64,000 nucleotides of DNA from Phlegmacium glaucopus (taxonomy: Eukaryota; Basidiomycota; Agaricomycetes; Agaricales; Cortinariaceae). A program made the translations under genes and the position numbers. The notes under the pieces were generated by a model. The model made no database searches and was not told the DNA's origin. It worked only from the letters and a program-made list of their open reading frames with translations. Location: positions 84,409 through 148,408 of the forward strand of contig MU130543.1 of the NCBI GenBank assembly GCA_015039465.1, given 5' to 3'. This document shows, in pieces, positions 45,184 through 63,569 of this stretch (its first letter is position 1; every line of letters starts with the position of its first letter).

Positions 45184-45189
45184 TTGAGG
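45184..45189. repeat. 6-base target-site duplication, left
   Basis: TTGAGG directly before the element. The same six bases follow it at 50691-50696. Confidence 0.8.
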
Positions 45190-45427
45190 TACGGTGCGCC
45201 AGGAGTGCCAGGCAGGATTTTAAGATAAAGTGGACTTATGCTCGTCGTTATTAATTTATTTCCAAACTATTTATGTTATATATAATATAATATAGAATAT
45301 GATAACCGTTGCATGTGTCTGCTACTTCATACTCCGAGTCACTCAGTGTTGTGTATTCACCGCTCACAGTCGTTATCGCGTTTCCGTTACTTCTGCCTCT
45401 CAAGCTCTTGATGACCCAAGTCTTGAC
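45190..45427 (+). repeat. Left terminal inverted repeat, 238 bases
   Basis: Exact reverse complement of 50453-50690. AT-rich middle (45245-45300) and no coding potential. The first gene starts about 180 bases inside. Confidence 0.92.
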
Positions 45428-45608
45428 AACACCTTTATTTTGCAAGAGATATTGTTCATTCTCGGAGAGTAACGGTCATTGGTAAGGGGTCAGGAGGTGG
45501 AAAAAATGAATAAACATAGGGGCTATAAAAAATGACTGCGTAATTAGTATTACATATGGTTTGTATATCCAACAACCCATAGCAAGATTCCCTCACTTTT
45601 TTCCCTGC

Positions 45609-47205
45609 ATGGCGTCTGCATCGAACAACAATCCTGTCGGGGTAAACCAGTTCAAGGACTGTCGTTCGTGTTGAAATCTTGATATCTTATGTGATGATCT
45701 AACTGTCTGATTTTAGCAAAGTCCAATGACGCTCATGTGGAGAGCCTGATTCGGGACTATGATCGTCGTAACATAGTCAATAAGGATCTGGTTAGCAAGA
45801 TGCTCCTCGCTGAGCATGGTATCCAGATGAGGTATGTAATTTCATTCTTGCGAGTTGCTGTACTGAATTAATTGTGAAATGATGCAACTATAATACACAG
45901 TTCGAGAACAGTTGTACGCCGCCGTAAATCATATGGGCTCCTCGGTAGTGGTGCCACAACTCGTGCGCTGCCATTGCCAGAGAAGCGGCAGCTTGTGCTC
46001 GATCAGCTAGCCAAGGATCCCACAAGCAAACAAGGTCCAAAGACAATTGGTGAAGGCATCGTGTTGAACAAGGGCGTCCACCTGACTAGGTACGACATAT
46101 ACCTGCTTCTCAACATATCTTATCTGATATTTCTTTCAAATTCTTTGACTGTGGTAGATCTTTCATACGATCAGAGATGCACCTCCATGATCCAGCAGGC
46201 TTTGCAATCCGTGAGCCTGCCGCTAAGAAGATACAAAGGGGTGTATTGGTATCTCTCGGGCCCCACCATGAATGGAGTGGCCATGGCCATGACAAGTTAG
46301 CCGAAATTGGATTTCCCATATGGGGAGTACGCGACAAATGGTCGTCTAAGTGGCTGGGTCTCTGGGTGCTTCCTAACAACCGCCTCAAGAAAGCTATTGC
46401 GCTCTTGTATCTCAAGCTCATTAAGGAACAAGGAGGTGAGTATTACAACTTATGTAATGAGGTGCATAATCGATGTCCAAACTTTCTACTTAGGTATGCC
46501 TATTCAAATGAGCACTGACCGTGGAAGTGAGACAACCGAAGTCTTTGGTCTTGCTAATGCACTGAGGTAGATATGATTCATACCATCAAGTGATATACAT
46601 GTTCAGAGGCGGTTTTAGAGAACTCTTCGCAAACCATCTTTCCATTAGTGAACTTCCTGCGCACCGGTTTTTGAAAAGCATACACAACATTACAATTGAG
46701 CGGGGATGGCTTCGCCTGCGCCTCCAGTGGGGTGACAATGTCAAAGTATTCTGGGAAGCTGGTGCTGATATATATGTCGAGTCAAACCCTGATCACTAGT
46801 ATGTCATTTCATTATTCCAAATCCCAGATCCTTCACAACTTTTGAAACAGCAACCTTGTTCAATGGCTGTGGTCGACTCTGATCCAGGCCGACCTTGACA
46901 AACTCCGCCACCATTTCAACAACCATGTAACAAGAAAAGACCGTGGAAAGCAACTGCCCTCTGGATGCTCACCTCATGTTGCGATGACCCTTTACTCGCA
47001 GTTTGGTGCCGAGAATTGTTTACAACCGGTGGATACTGACATTATTGATGCGTTGATAGTGGAGATAGGCAGTGATGATGTCCTTCAATTTGTCACCCCA
47101 GCGTATGCTGAGCAAGCACAGGGGATATATGATAACCTTCAGATTGGTGAACTAACGTTCCAGAATGTCTGGAGTATTTTCGCCAAAATGCTGCCTTGTA
47201 TGTAA
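45609..47205 (+). CDS. DDE transposase with integrase-core domain (rve/rva_4-like)
   Basis: The ATG at 45609-45611 opens MASASNNNPVGVNQFKD, and exons can be joined to TAA at 47203-47205 (about 420 residues). An N-terminal helix-turn-helix-like part reads LVSKMLLAEHGIQMSSRTVV then RRRKSYGLLGS. The catalytic core follows: EWSGHGHDKLAEIGFPIWG (first Asp), LGLWVLPNNRLKKAIALLYL, MPIQMSTDRGSETTEVFGL (second Asp, in the TDRGxE context typical of integrases) and SIHNITIERGWLRLRLQWGD (Glu). All three acidic residues are present. Five introns with GT-AG borders interrupt it. The first junction (GACT|GTCGTT) is the weakest. Predicted role: cutting and joining the element's 238-base ends. No stop or shift seen, so it may be active. 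Confidence 0.85.
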
Positions 47206-47294
47206 TAAATATGTGAACAGTTAATCGCATTCAATATTTGCAAGATTTAAGACATATATTACGATGTTGACCAAGAAAAACAATAAATACCCGC

Positions 47295-49914
47295 TCAACG
47301 AGTCTGAGAAAAGCCTATGCGGAGTGGGTCACGACGGGTGTTAATATCCTTCAATTTTAGCTTTTTGCAAAGTTCTTTGCACTTGTGCGCTCCTTGCCAC
47401 ACCCTGATCTCAGCGGAGCCACCATCCCAAAACCCAGTGTCTTTGGCTAATCTATCAAAATAAATTGTCAAGGCCAACACGGGGTAAAAAAATGATCAAC
47501 ATACGATTGTGCTTGAGGATCAAACAGAATAACACACTGGTTTGGTCCCACAACGCCTGATAATGGACCAACAATCAAGACCCCACTCCATGAAGTATTG
47601 AGATAACATACCTTGAAGGTCAGTAAGCAAAAGGGTCCCATCAGAGTCAACGAGTACATGGTGGGCATATGCATCAATAGCTGAACCCACGACATCAATA
47701 CTGTGCCCAGCAGTTGTACTACCACTGAACTTTCTTTCAGTGTACAAACCGGATGACATATCTAAAAGTGGCGCTGCAAGGAAAGTTTGAAAGATGAGGC
47801 TTGATGTATCATCTAAGTAAGCATTGGTGATAGCACCAATGAAGGCACCATGAGTGTTCCAACGTATATCTAGACCTCAATGGACAAAGAATAATCAATG
47901 ATATGATATGGCTTACCTGGGATTCGGACACCGTATGTTTGCGCACGCTGTGCAAATGACTCTGCAAAGTACTGCCCATGAACAAGCAATTTCATTTCTG
48001 CGGTCAAATCCGCACGATTTGACACCTCATCAACACCAGGACGTGCCTTGCACTGGAAAATTGCATAAGAAGCACCTTCGTATTGGCCCTGCTATGTACC
48101 TTAGTTGTTGAATTAAAATTGGGAAATTTCATCACGCACCATGAATGCAAACTTGGTAGCACCTTTTGAGAGATATCCATCCTCAGGTTTATCACCTTCA
48201 CAAAAGGAGCGCCAGTCCTTTGAGATTTTGATCTTTTCGTCAAGGCTAAGAACTTCATCGAGGTTCCCATGCTTGTCAATTGTAATTGTTGTCTTTTGAA
48301 AGTCGTACTGGTCATATGTGATTTCGGGACTTGTATGGACTGTCGACATTAACTTTCGAGGGCGAAATGAGCTAGTGTACTCTGTCACGGTTGAAATACC
48401 TATCAAAACACTTCAGGTATATTAGAGATTGCACCTCCGAATGATGACCTACTGCCGGATGCCTTTCGTTTCACACTTGGCTTCAAGGACATGTGAATTT
48501 TGGAGCGTTGTGTAGATGGTTGGCCCCGAGAACCGCTAGACAGCTGGCGGACAGAACTGAAATCTTCATCTTCATCTAGAATCTTTATCTGGATTAGCGA
48601 AGTGAAAAGAAAGTAGTGTTACTACTATACAGATTGTGCCTCGTATGCGAAAACACGGAGGCTGAGCCGCCGTTCCTTAATGTCGGACTCGGAGATCTTG
48701 GAATCTGCCTTAAGCCTGTTGAACATGCCTTCAACGCTACCAAGGATATGATCCTCCGTCGGCTTAAAATTATAAACTGATTTTGCCGATTGGTTTATCC
48801 CAAACAGAACGCTAGAATTTTTTTAAACCTCAGATTAGAATGGAAGGTAAAAATTCTCACTCCTCGAAATTCAAAACATTCATGCCACCAACATTTGAGG
48901 CAGGCGATTCATCCCAAGCTTTCTGAAGTTCACTTCGCGCATGATCTAACACTGATTTCGCAGGATCTGTTCCAAAAAATTTCTTCAGGACAGGTAAAAG
49001 CTGAGCCTTCAATGGTACAATATCAGTGAAAAGTATGAGACTCGGATATGTGGAAATTTACCTTTCTTGCAGCAGCACCACTCTTTGGAAAATAGAAGAG
49101 TGTCGCCTCCATAGTGATTGTGTCCCCTTTAACCTGTTTTTTGAGGTTAGAAATCTTGGCCTTGAGTTGCGCAGCATTGGCAGCTTGAAGTCCAGCGTTC
49201 AGTGTAGGCGGCTGGTTGAGCCGATGCTGAGATGCGGTTGATTGATATTTGGCTGCGTGCGAAAGGATGTCGCTTGCTGTTTTGTTGGCTGCCCACAGAA
49301 CTTAGCGAGATGCTGAAAATATGTATAAATAATACTCACCGTCCCTCGCAGACGAAGCTGGCACTACAACAGTCAGTTTGGGCCAATATCTGATTACAGC
49401 AGAAACTGCCACTCACCATCCATACAGGCGCCACAAAGGACATTTTTCATGTATGGATATACCACAGAGCATTGTTCACACTGCGGTTGCTTCTATAATT
49501 TAAATGAGTAGATTCTCAACAGTCAAGAAGCAGCAACATTGAGCTAACCTCAATTGCCTCACGCTCTGTAGATGAAGGCGCAGCTGCAAGCTTGATACAC
49601 TTCATACAAAGCGGTCCATTGAGACCACGGAATAGCACCGCACATCCAGTACAGAGACCCATGATGAAATTTCCGCTGCAGAGTAAAGAGACCGCTGTTG
49701 ATGACGAGGCTTATGAGGCTTAAAAAAAAGATTAAGTTAAACCCGCGAAATTGTGCCAGGCTGAGGCGCACCGTTGTCGTCACTTTGCTTTCCCCATTGA
49801 TCTGTTGCCGCATACAGTTGCTGTTGTTCTATATCTGTTAAATAATATAAATTTATGATAAACGAATAAGTAGTGAGATATAATCCAAGTACATATTTCG
49901 AGGGTAGGTGACAT
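47295..49914 (-). CDS. Transposon-borne alpha-type protein kinase with N-terminal zinc-ribbon-like region
   Basis: About a dozen exons join from ATG 49912-49914 (MSPTLEIYIEQQQLYAATDQ) to TGA 47295-47297, giving about 650 residues. Near the N-terminus, paired cysteines (CTGCAV, LCMKC, QCEQC, LCGAC) suggest zinc ribbons. A helical Lys/Gln-rich middle follows (QLKAKISNLKKQVKGD). The C-terminal third has alpha-kinase (MHCK/EF2K/TRPM7-class) landmarks: YAIFQCKAR with the candidate ATP-binding Lys, YTERKFSG, LLLTDLQGVVG, FDPQAQS, and the zinc-binding end GAHKCKELCKKLKL. Family knowledge: these atypical Ser/Thr kinases phosphorylate residues in helices and depend on a structural zinc. The join into the first Cys-rich exon (near 49730-49690) is not resolved. 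It is convergent with the transposase, stops 90 bases apart. Confidence 0.85.
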
Positions 49915-50452
49915 GTTGACATTATTCGTCGAACTTGCTTTTTTCTTTCTGTTGATTGTAGGACATTATTTTTGTTTGATACGCTGCTGGAGTATCAGCA
50001 AGCCCATGACTGCCACATTGATAAATTGAGCGAAACGTTCATGAAAAGTCATAGTCCGCAATTGATTCATGCTTATTACGACCAAAAATTAAGCTCTTGT
50101 GAGAAAATAACACACCTCAACCACGAATTCGGAACATAAAAGAATCCAAAACTGACAGGCGCAGGTAAGGCACCTAAATACTATAGACATATATGTGAGA
50201 CAACGAGACAAGTATTCCAAATTAAAGGAAGGGTTACAGAACCAGGAATAGGAGAGTGCAGAGCCTGTAAGTCAATACCTCGTGAGTAGGGTAAAATAGG
50301 TGGAGAGATACATACCAAGTCAACATGCCAGTTGAAACCGACCATAGAATAAGAGCGTGCACAATCTTTATGGTGTTAACAGGATCATGATGTAATACTT
50401 TAAGCCGAATAAACGAACCCTTCAATGGAAAACCCTAGCAAGACTTGGGTGC

Positions 50453-50690
50453 GTCAAGACTTGGGTCATCAAGAGCTTGAGAGGCAGAAGTAACGGAAAC
50501 GCGATAACGACTGTGAGCGGTGAATACACAACACTGAGTGACTCGGAGTATGAAGTAGCAGACACATGCAACGGTTATCATATTCTATATTATATTATAT
50601 ATAACATAAATAGTTTGGAAATAAATTAATAACGACGAGCATAAGTCCACTTTATCTTAAAATCCTGCCTGGCACTCCTGGCGCACCGTA
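50453..50690 (-). repeat. Right terminal inverted repeat, 238 bases
   Basis: Exact reverse complement of 45190-45427. Just inside it the phrase CAAGACTTGGGT recurs, a short direct repeat. Confidence 0.92.
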
Positions 50691-50696
50691 TTGAGG
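50691..50696. repeat. 6-base target-site duplication, right
   Basis: TTGAGG immediately after the right terminal repeat, matching 45184-45189. Confidence 0.8.
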
Positions 50697-59460: not shown

Positions 59461-62400
59461 GTGGCTAGGGCTGCACACCGTCGCTGTATTTACAGCTTAC
59501 GGCTACCGACATACGGCCACCATCACCGTACCATGAGCCTCTGGGCTGACCACTTTACGGTACGGCAACGGTACGGTTGACCACCGATTACAGTGATAAA
59601 AAACAGCAATAAATGGCCATTGTGGGTGATTCGGCTCAGTCTAAAACTTAATTTTAAACTAAACAAACTGAACGCTGATGTTGACAACTTAAAAAAGATC
59701 AACACAACATTGAACCAATCATTCCATCTCTCTGTAACCATCAATGGCAGCCGACTCGATTTCCTATGCATTGTGCGCCACATTTTCTAAATGGATGTCC
59801 TTTCTTTGTCAGAAAGTCAAAGGACATTCCTTACCTGTCCTACCTCGTAAGCTTAGAGTTTGTAATGTAGCAGCAGTCTATAATTGTGCTCATCTCCTTG
59901 CTTTTGAATGCCATCCAGCTATGAAGTACAACTTACCTATGGAATAAGCCTGTTTCCAGCAATCAAGACCTCAAAAAGAATGTTGGGGCGCTCAATCTAG
60001 TTGACAACAACTCGTTGTACCCTCATGAGATTCTCTCCAATGTTTTCTGGTCTGGGCTGGAGAAAAGGACTGTATATCACATGGACACGGTCACCTTTTG
60101 AGTATTCCATTCCAATCTTTCGTTTTATCACTCCTTCAATTTCAAATAAGACTGGCAACGTGATTTCCTGTTTTCTCCATCTCAGCTGACCTCGTGAAAC
60201 ACTAGATTGCATGTGAGACACAAATTTTCACGGTTTCCAAGACCCTTCCTTGACGAGTAGTTATAAAGGTTTTTTCTCCCTCCAAAACTCAACTTGTTCT
60301 CTCCTTTCTCTCAATGGCTACAGGTTGTGCTCTTGATGAACTGGGCAATCTCAAAAATCCGTCTGACATTGAATTCTTCAATTCCGAAACTGATACTCGC
60401 CTGATTTCTGGACCCACTGCTCATGTTTCATCTGGCTGTTCAATAGGTCTGTCAATTCTTCCTCCTTTCCATATTCAAGCTAACTGAACTGCCTCATAGG
60501 TCATGCCCCATCTCATGAACCTCTAGGTCTGTTACTGTCGTTTTTAATGATCTTAACTAACTCCACTATTTTATAGGTCAACGCAGTGGGCAAGGGCCAA
60601 AGATGGCAGCCCTTGTCGCTGTGCAGGGTTTGGGCTCTGATGGTGAACCCGAGACAGCAAAGAAATCATATCGCCGTCGCCCCCGACGCCGTGGTACTGG
60701 AGCTACTGCGTCACGCAAACGGAAGTCAAACAAGGATGACGAGGACAGTGAGGCCCAAGATGGTGATTTTGCTGTGGCGTCCAGTGACTCAGAGTCCAGT
60801 GATGACTCGCAGTTCACAGGAGATGAGGTTGTTGGCAACGCTGAGGTGTGTCAACATGATTTATTGTTAAATATTCTAACTCATTGTACCTTTTAATTTA
60901 GCTCGCATCCATCCTACCTTCCAAGTCTATCCCCACTACAGGCCGTGGCTCTGGCTCTCACACCAGGAAGCGCAAGGCCACAGAGGTGATTGAAGTTGAG
61001 GATGAGGACAGCCCCTGACAAATTTCTGCTCGCTCATCAAGCCCTGCTGATAACTCTGTTATTCTTGAGGAAATACCTGCTGCCAAACGAGCATCAACCT
61101 CCACTTCTGGAACGAAACAAGCCAACAACAAACAGGTATGCGCTCTGTATTCAATGATGAGATAGAATGACCACTAACTACAAATCTTATTCAGTCAGCC
61201 ACATGAAACCCAATTTATTACTTTTACAAAAAGGTCGAGCATGGTGCTGATGGTAATATTGGCGAAGCGGGTGATAAGCATTATAAGTGCTATCATGGTA
61301 ATTCAAAGATATTTACACTCAAAAAGACTGGAAAATCAAACCTGACGTGTATGTTATCACCCTCATCAGTTATTCCCTTGTTTTAATTTATTTTTGTATC
61401 TCAGCAATGGTCAACAACTTGAAGGCGTGTTCGCCACAGATGTACTGCCTCTACAGTATTCTCAAAGAGAGGCCGGCAGATCAGCCTGTCACCGAGGACA
61501 AACTTGCTATTGCAGCTGGTTCCAAGGTGCTTGACCCTATCAAGGCAAAGGAGTACTTCAGAAATCTCAAGGTGACTTCGGAGAATATCTGTACTGCATT
61601 TGAGAAACAGTCAACAAATGCTGCAGTAAGAAATTGTATTCAACTTTGTTCTAAAGCATGTATTGACATCGGTATAGGGCCCATGGGATCAAGAAAAATT
61701 TGAGCAACTTCTGGCTGAGTGGATTGTCGCCTGCGACCAACCCTTTGAGGAGGTTGATAGGCCAGAATTCCATGACCTCTTGATGTATGCGCACCACCCC
61801 GCCCTCAATCTCAAGATCCCACACCGTGATGCCATTAGGTGTAGAATCATGAAGATGGGTGAAGATAGTATCGAGTCCACCAAGGCAATGTTTAAGGTCA
61901 GACTCAAACATTTTTTCAAGTCCTTTGTGAAATTGTTCTAATTCTTTTTTGTAGGACGATGTTAAAGGGAAGATCAGCCTCTCACTTGATGCTTGGACAT
62001 CAAGCAATAACTATGCATTCCTTGCGATTGTTGCACATTACATGACTGAAGATGGGCAGTTAGGTGAATAATTCAGTTTCTGTTCGTCTAGCTCTTTATT
62101 TACATACTACTTTGTCTAAAGAGGAGTTGTTAATTGATTTTTGTGAGCTCATTGGTGAGCATTCTGGCAAAAATATGGCCGAGGCTGTGTGGGAGACCCT
62201 GAAGCGATATGGGATTGAGGACCATGTACGCATACATCATTCAATGTATTGGTTATTTTGTATTGATAATGGTCCCAGATTTTGGCATTCATGCTCGACA
62301 ACATGTCCAACAATGACACAATGGTTGATGGAATACAATTGTGGGCTGCTAAAGAAGGAATCTATTTTGATGCGGCTTGGGCACATCTCCAATGCATGCC

Positions 62401-62654
62401 TCATACAATTCACCTGGCAGCCATCAAGGTTTGTAAATCACTCACATCTTGTATCATTCCAGAACTTATGCCATCTCTTTAAGTTGCTGGAGGCAATTGG
62501 GGCAATCTCCAAGACAGAGGCCAAGAAAGCATCCTCTCGCAGTGGAAACTACCAGAACTCAACTACGGCGCCTCTCAGTCGTGACCATGATGATGATGCT
62601 GCAGCACAGGAGGATGCTGATCAAGATGACAGCATCAGTTTGTCGCTCGCATCA

Positions 62655-63569
62655 GGAAAAATGACTTGTGCCCTAGGCCGTCCTGAAATGTCCTGGGGTG
62701 CCCCAGGCAGCTCAGGGCGCTCAGGTCAAGAGGTCGCCCTGGGGTGCAAGTTACCTATGTATGAAAAGTCTTAGGCTGTCCTGGGGCAACCTGAGGCAAC
62801 CTGAGAGCGTCCTGAGGCAACCTGAGAGCGTCCTGAGGCAACCTGAGGCAACCTGAGAGCATCCTGAGGCAGCCTTAGTCCCTTTGGATCTGATGCTAGA
62901 AAACATATATAAACCAGATATTTGAGTGGTCTCACACAACAGAATAATAATAATAACAATAAAATTATATTCAGTTATTCTAAACATCATATATAGTACT
63001 AGTAATAAAATAATAATGATACATAAATATACTAGTATAATACTGGGGAAGTAGGGAATAAGAAAACAAAATTGTGGGTGGTTTATATATCTTTTGGATG
63101 GCGCACAGACCATTGGTCACATGATCACAGATAAGCATGATTTCAAGCATATGGTGCTGGGTCAGGGTAGATTACATAAATTCCAAAAAAGGAAATTTTT
63201 TAAAGATGGTAGAGAATTGTTTTAGGACCCTGAATATGTTTAAATTATATTAATAGCAGCTCTCCTTATTGAGAAAACTGCAAAATACTTTTTTGGACGC
63301 AGCGGTTAAAGATTTTCTAGCAAAATTCATAAATTCTAAGGGACTCCCAGGGCCTCCTGATGTGATTTGGTCCAGATGGTCAATGCACAGGATACACTAA
63401 AGGTGTCCTGAGAAAATGGGTGACACTCAAAATTTTACCTGTGCTGCTCTAGGATGTCCTGGGGTGTCCTGGGATGTCCTGAGTAGTGATGTGATACTAA
63501 CAAATTACCCAAGGCTACCTAGGGCCAAAATCATTTTTCCTGATGTGATAAATCAGCAAACATTTTACC
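62655..63569. mobile_element. Nested ~0.9-kb element inside the hAT transposase
   Basis: The hAT reading frame stops matching after SLSLAS (62654) and resumes at AVEK (63571). The foreign part begins GGAAAAATGACTTGTGCCC and ends with CATTTTACC, whose reverse complement GGTAAAATG resembles the start. A second, better inverted match lies just inside the right end (GGAAAAATGATTTTGGCCC). Repeats of TCCTGGG and CCTGAGGCAA lie near the ends. There is no coding potential. The exact target duplication is not clear (A or CA). Confidence 0.65.
62770..62875. repeat. Minisatellite within the nested element
   Basis: Units of CCTGAGGCAA (10-11 bases) alternating with CCTGAGAGCGT form about 21-base higher-order units, repeated four to five times. 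Confidence 0.75.

Follow-up and report, generated by a model that had tools for sequence, protein, structure and literature searches.

Does a protein kinase gene that lies between the ends of a mushroom transposon belong to that transposon, or was it caught there once? The question is raised by a 64,000-nucleotide stretch of the genome of the agaric Phlegmacium glaucopus (hereafter the window; contig MU130543.1, C187:84409-148408 in our searches of the 60.5-Mb assembly of 259 contigs), in which positions 45190-50690 form an element of 5,501 bp carrying a transposase gene and an alpha-kinase gene. We consider it probable that this is a cut-and-paste transposon of the IS3EU superfamily whose lineage holds the alpha-kinase as an inherited component, putatively serving the element in trans. 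The evidence drawn from the sequence consists of the ends, the target duplication, the intact spliced frames, the same gene pair elsewhere and the parallel divergence of both proteins.

The boundaries of the element are exact. Its two 238-nucleotide arms are perfect reverse complements, the match stopping at the arm end, and the hexamer TTGAGG stands on both flanks, as the earlier note on this DNA had described (Table 1). A perfect inverted pair of this length, with an arm that recurs elsewhere at 92-93% identity, is far beyond chance. Fungal IS3EU elements are described as having TAYGG..CCRTA ends and 6-bp duplications, with inverted repeats of >30 bp in the TET/JBP-bearing families (Kojima 2025, PMC12730594), and IS3EU/GingerRoot elements at large as having TA..TA ends, 6-bp duplications and an integrase-type DDE core (Kojima 2023, PMC10045372). 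The window element shares all of these features, its outer ends reading TACGG..CCGTA, and a second element on contig C220 combines the same terminal bases with the duplication GTCAAT. Together with the integrase-type core, this makes its assignment to IS3EU almost certain. Insertion would proceed by integrase-type strand transfer at positions 6 bp apart. An empty TTGAGG site, which the note had proposed to look for, was not found in this assembly.

The two genes converge across an intergenic gap of 90 bp. A first transposase model of 418 amino acids matched the Pfam rva_4 profile with 32.9 bits (cut-off 26; E 6.7e-8); its exon 6 acceptor was then revised against the P. glaucopus homologue P0019, to which the window transposase is 90% identical, and the predicted fold resembles retroviral integrases, IstA and TnsB. 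Likewise, a first kinase model of 604 amino acids matched Pfam Alpha_kinase (PF02816) with 44.5 bits (cut-off 21.3; E 2.4e-11), and its exon 4 start was revised using homology-guided splicing and the homologue P0006. Splicing guided by a Termitomyces protein gave the same kinase introns bar one acceptor (4 amino acids), and a Phlegmacium protein agrees there. The kinase comprises two CxxC..CxxC zinc-finger-like units, a possible beta-grasp domain, a low-confidence linker and a C-terminal domain with the alpha-kinase fold, in which the previously noted landmarks DLQGVVG and HKCKELC are present; the same Pfam profile matches 17 of 22 kinase homologues at E <= 0.01. The profile searches proposed in the earlier note thus placed both spliced products above their cut-offs.

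Table 1. Features of the IS3EU element in the window, with the contigs of TET/JBP matches elsewhere in the genome.
Feature	Position	Strand	Basis
Left target site duplication, TTGAGG, 6 bp	45184..45189	.	direct read
Left terminal inverted repeat, 238 bp, starts TACGGTGCGCC	45190..45427	+	92-93% matches at C67, C184
Transposase gene, 7 exons, 414 aa, rva_4 integrase core; H162 - D221 - E264 at DDE positions	45609..47205	+	spliced model, Pfam
Transposase exons	45609-45663, 45717-45831, 45901-46089, 46158-46435, 46494-46566, 46619-46798, 46851-47205	+	
Alpha-kinase gene, 12 exons, 600 aa	47295..49662	-	spliced model, Pfam, homology-guided splice
Kinase exons 1-6	49549-49662, 49417-49492, 49340-49363, 49062-49288, 48861-49006, 48631-48811	-	
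Kinase exons 7-12	48453-48588, 48140-48399, 47917-48088, 47612-47869, 47505-47556, 47295-47451	-	
Right terminal inverted repeat, 238 bp, finishes ..GGCGCACCGTA	50453..50690	-	exact arm comparison
Right target site duplication, TTGAGG, 6 bp	50691..50696	.	direct read
TET/JBP match contigs	C129, C149, C106, C188, C127, C14, C120, C13, C206, C225, C138		

A DNA search with the element end recovered, besides its own arms, matches on C184 (93%) and C67 (92%) and a 45-base piece on C41. The C67 copy (C67:22800-31800, aligned with window positions 45190-49724) holds both genes at 95.4% identity over 4,535 aligned columns. It is decayed: its right end is absent from the fetched stretch, a 1,690-base insert lies inside the kinase, and besides frame-breaking gaps the transposase has one premature stop and the kinase three. 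Between this copy and the window, 125 of the 208 substitutions are CpG to TpG or CpA, and the ratio of observed to expected CpG, 0.83 over the whole window, is 0.75 for the window element and 0.41 for the C220 element, and falls to 0.15 and 0.13 in the two parts of C67. Old copies would therefore have eroded as methylated CpG does, with the window copy little eroded, and the substitution bias suggests that this fungus methylates CpG sites in old copies. The idea that the insertion is recent, advanced earlier, gains support from these ratios; identical ends alone are no clock. The stretch read on C184 contained right-end pieces only, where four tandem units of ~168 bp adjoin the right-end remnant (L003 157-803).

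The association of the two genes extends across the genome. Twelve alpha-kinase loci were found, ten with the Pfam Alpha_kinase profile and those on C187 and C67 with the kinase protein as query; a search with the C83 kinase returned the same 12 and none further. The transposase lineage is represented by 17 loci, counting as one the two C87 pieces that we infer to be a single gene split by ~16 kb. A transposase match of this lineage stands no more than ~5 kb from 11 of the 12 kinase loci, where chance would give ~0.07 coupled loci (our arithmetic, from 17 transposase loci and a 10-kb reach). The pair is convergent at three of these 11 (the window, C67 and C91) and codirectional at the other eight (C83, C124, C220, C137, C87, C198, C105 and C159). 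In this one genome, the view that alpha-kinase copies move together with transposases is supported.

Among the codirectional loci, C220:67170-75385 is a second, distinct bounded element, whose limits were obtained by comparing C124 with C220 and then extending the flanks. It has 33-bp ends with one mismatch (TACGGTTGGCGCC..), GTCAAT on both sides, and encloses transposase, alpha-kinase and nested inserts. C124 is its relative, 92-97% identical in pieces and with the right end in common. A third family, on C137 and C87, has ends TACCGTTGGCGG.., one seen in each, and begins TACCG, departing from TAYGG. The pair therefore recurs both in the C67 copy and in a separately bounded family, and the kinase is very probably an inherited component of the transposase lineage; the one-off capture and the failed kinase profile that the earlier note had named as grounds for abandoning its view did not occur. 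Two side observations concern these families. Near-perfect palindromes of ~390 bp, apparently fold-back insertions, occur at C137:26095-26484 (L060) and C87:71914-72304 (L059), 98-99% self-complementary and 96% alike. Furthermore, open frames at window positions 62064-62774 (+) and at L052 5075-5395 (-) have a nearly identical 35-residue tail (..PEMSWGAPGSSG..), a dispersed repeat of which one copy adjoins an insert nested in the C220 element.

In other species, protein searches scored the best 7,991/7,992 candidates by shared words, and the pairing count across species is a lower bound. They returned at least 15 kinases, 14 of them named, and 146 transposases, of which the best 120 were listed. 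Adjacent gene numbers for the pair were found in Lyophyllum shimeji (whose gene numbers run in tens, a step of ten being counted as neighbouring), Hypsizygus marmoreus, Tricholomella constricta and a Termitomyces, that is, for at least four of the 14 named kinases. P. glaucopus is one more of the 14, with kinase and transposase on equally long contigs. Among the matches listed, an alignment search adds kinases of Amanita, Mycena and Collybia and from metagenomes, and the C91 kinase is 86% identical to P. glaucopus P0140. In T. constricta, the gene models P0007 and P0009 combine Cu-oxidase (laccase) and alpha-kinase Pfam domains, one being named a laccase; these are probably fused models of neighbouring genes.

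The two proteins also diverge in parallel. Over nine pairs (the window, the four species with adjacent numbers, C91, C83, C124 and C137), the identity matrices of kinase core and transposase correlate with r = 0.93 (Mantel p = 2.5e-4), and the five-member, Lyophyllaceae-like group alone gives r = 0.92. The kinase and transposase trees show the same two-group split with 100/100 support; within the kinase tree, the convergent C91 falls outside three codirectional members at 87/86, below the support mark. Kinase-core identity across families is 27-33%, and between the window and Lyophyllum the kinase core is conserved to the same degree as the transposase.

The transposase of the window copy bears a particular substitution. 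The earlier note credited it with an integrase core and all three acidic residues; the core stands and the triad does not, as the window reads WSGHGHDKL, in which residue 162 (W+3) is His, with D221 and E264 present. One of the acidic residues counted in that note was probably D165. At W+3, Asp occurs in 110 of 121 aligned transposases, His or Asn in eight, Tyr in two and Gly in one; Asp also stands at positions 165 and 221 in 113 of the same rows each, and 112 rows retain the Glu. H162 is common to the window, C67 and P0019, with His in two further rows and Asn in four. Other rva_4 loci of the same genome carry WHIDG(HHKL) or WHHDG in five of the six fetched, the sixth being without that stretch, which identifies W+3 as the position of the Asp shared by the superfamily. 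In the predicted model, residue 162 falls within the first strand (158-164) and D165 outside it, and a structural alignment with PFV integrase (148 to 114) places residue 162 at PFV 128, assuming no gap. We take PFV D128 to be the first catalytic Asp, the counterpart of D64 in the HIV and RSV integrases.

With His in place of the first catalytic Asp, the autonomy of the window copy is doubtful. Its clean insertion nevertheless implies that either the variant works or the copy was moved in trans, and the element was probably moved by a related transposase, unless the H162 variant keeps some activity. We see about an even chance that the whole family is now non-autonomous, with H162 disabling its transposase and a D162 relative of the C83, C91, C124 or C137 type having moved the element. 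The shared H162 of window and C67, the Asp of those four modelled transposases and the location of residue 162 in the first strand all agree with this; on the other hand, the ends of the relatives differ (TACGGTTGGCGCC on C220 versus TACGGTGCGCC here), and several other species have His or Asn there, which may be tolerated or may mark further dead copies.

Regarding the kinase, residues were counted over 30 aligned sequences, the denominators being the residues present. The DxQ motif is kept (D529 in 24/26, Q531 in 23/26), as are the second Asp, of DPQ (D544, 18/22), and the zinc ligands H515 of the AYAH stretch (23/25), the C-terminal H571 (21/21) and the last Cys, C577 (21/21); the Cys preceding C577 is found in 11/20, partly owing to alignment shifts. 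Lys K384 in GxGxxK is invariant (29/29). The residue after the YAIFQ strand, Q400, is Gln in 25/27, at a place where the patterns of other alpha-kinases lead one to expect the nucleotide-binding Lys, so that the family would either be active through an unusual Lys or have lost activity in part. TRPM7, MHCK-A, eEF2K and ALPK1 show ~13-18% structure-based identity to the window kinase, which differs from all four in this Gln and in its N-terminal zinc-finger-like pair and possible beta-grasp domain.

Several observations weigh against an inherited kinase working for a mobile element. One kinase, on C166, is without a lineage transposase in the ~11 kb read (C166:220500-231400; L050, L062); there, a ~650-base gap precedes the last part of the kinase, which may be a remnant or a freed gene. 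Conversely, no kinase was found near six of the 17 transposase loci (two on C202, and C171, C223, C48 and C221), most of them fragmentary or divergent matches, and 10 further rva_4 loci detected with the Pfam model are not at kinase loci. The C91, C83, C124 and C137 group alone gives r = 0.18 (four pairs), so the overall correlation rests largely on the two deep clades and the Lyophyllaceae-like clade. The dN/dS ratios between window and C67 are 0.48 (0.29-0.80) for the transposase and 0.50 (0.32-0.80) for the kinase, weak evidence of selection, since both genes of the decayed C67 copy contain stops. H162 speaks against the element being autonomous and active, the Gln found where Lys is expected casts doubt on catalysis by the kinase, and the link between kinase and silencing is circumstantial.

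On balance, we find it rather likely that the kinase serves the element. Expressed from its convergent gene, it would work in trans and help the element persist. Its target may be host chromatin or silencing factors, a tentative choice that we rank first because old copies are CpG-decayed and because, in the rust relatives, a TET/JBP demethylase gene lies between the two genes; the transposase itself would come second, and a general host function such as translation third. Phosphorylation of the element's transposase or its end complex by the kinase, as a means of regulating timing or copy number, seems unlikely: stable pairing and parallel divergence fit a physical partnership, yet linkage alone yields parallel divergence, and the occurrence of this kinase lineage beside TET/JBP in rust elements (PMC12730594) points to host silencing. 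Quite improbable, in turn, is a neutral passenger trapped once between the ends and carried without benefit. Transposition in principle needs only ends and transposase, and the six transposase loci with no detected kinase agree with a dispensable cargo; however, the pair persists across families despite low kinase-core identity, alpha-kinase catalytic and zinc positions are kept in most members, and a passenger should decay faster than the transposase, which is contrary to the equal conservation of both between window and Lyophyllum. Finally, chance proximity of ordinary host alpha-kinase genes to transposases is extremely improbable, even though rust alpha-kinases are treated as an expanded gene family (PMC4469406) and the C166 kinase stands alone, given the excess of coupled loci over chance, and for the window and C220 kinases it is refuted by the enclosing ends with their target duplications.

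The gene pair itself has a published counterpart. In TET/JBP-bearing IS3EU families, known from Pucciniales and Tuber indicum, the transposase and alpha-kinase genes point in opposite directions, and in the rust elements the TET/JBP gene sits between them (Kojima 2025, PMC12730594). The earlier note, which knew of no description of an element with this gene pair, is not borne out on this point: already in print are the IS3EU superfamily with its ends and 6-bp duplication, as well as the alpha-kinase of TET/JBP-bearing IS3EU. The window element resembles these families in its duplication, ends, repeat length and opposed gene pair; it differs in its agaric host, its His at the first DDE Asp and the absence of a TET/JBP gene. 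A search of this genome with PF12851 (TET/JBP) gave 13 places, 11 over the cut-off, and no match on C187 or the other alpha-kinase contigs. In view of the opposite orientations reported by Kojima, the codirectional arrangement of eight of the 11 coupled loci appears to be a variant. Compared with IS3EU/GingerRoot, for which the available description mentions no such gene in the superfamily at large (PMC10045372), the window element carries the alpha-kinase as an extra gene. Styx of Zymoseptoria, a large fungal element related by its authors to IS3EU, likewise has coding sequences beside the transposase, and in its available description no alpha-kinase is named among the four (PMC10853768). In the open-access literature searched, we found the pair stated only in PMC12730594, and neither the kinase itself nor TET/JBP-less elements of this kind in mushrooms were the subject of any paper found.

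Alpha-kinases number 79 in Melampsora larici-populina and 39 in Puccinia graminis, with a mean of 5 across seven Agaricomycetes and 0 in the table's remaining seven basidiomycetes (PMC4469406, Table 3), and members have been listed among the rapidly evolving rust genes (PMC4150398); the available portions of these two papers state no link between the expansion and transposons. It is possible, if short of probable, that the alpha-kinase is an ancestral, selected IS3EU component from mushrooms to rusts, a signalling enzyme for anti-silencing or transposition control in which the invariant K384 near the glycine-rich turn replaces the usual Lys. If so, the rust alpha-kinase expansions would be largely transposon genes. 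These results suggest that transposon cargo may make up part of the alpha-kinase families reported in mushrooms and rusts, and as nearly all detected alpha-kinases of this genome adjoin an IS3EU transposase, the share of such cargo in fungi becomes testable. A protein kinase, rarely discussed as a transposon component, would then be added to the means by which DNA transposons may counter their hosts or work with them.

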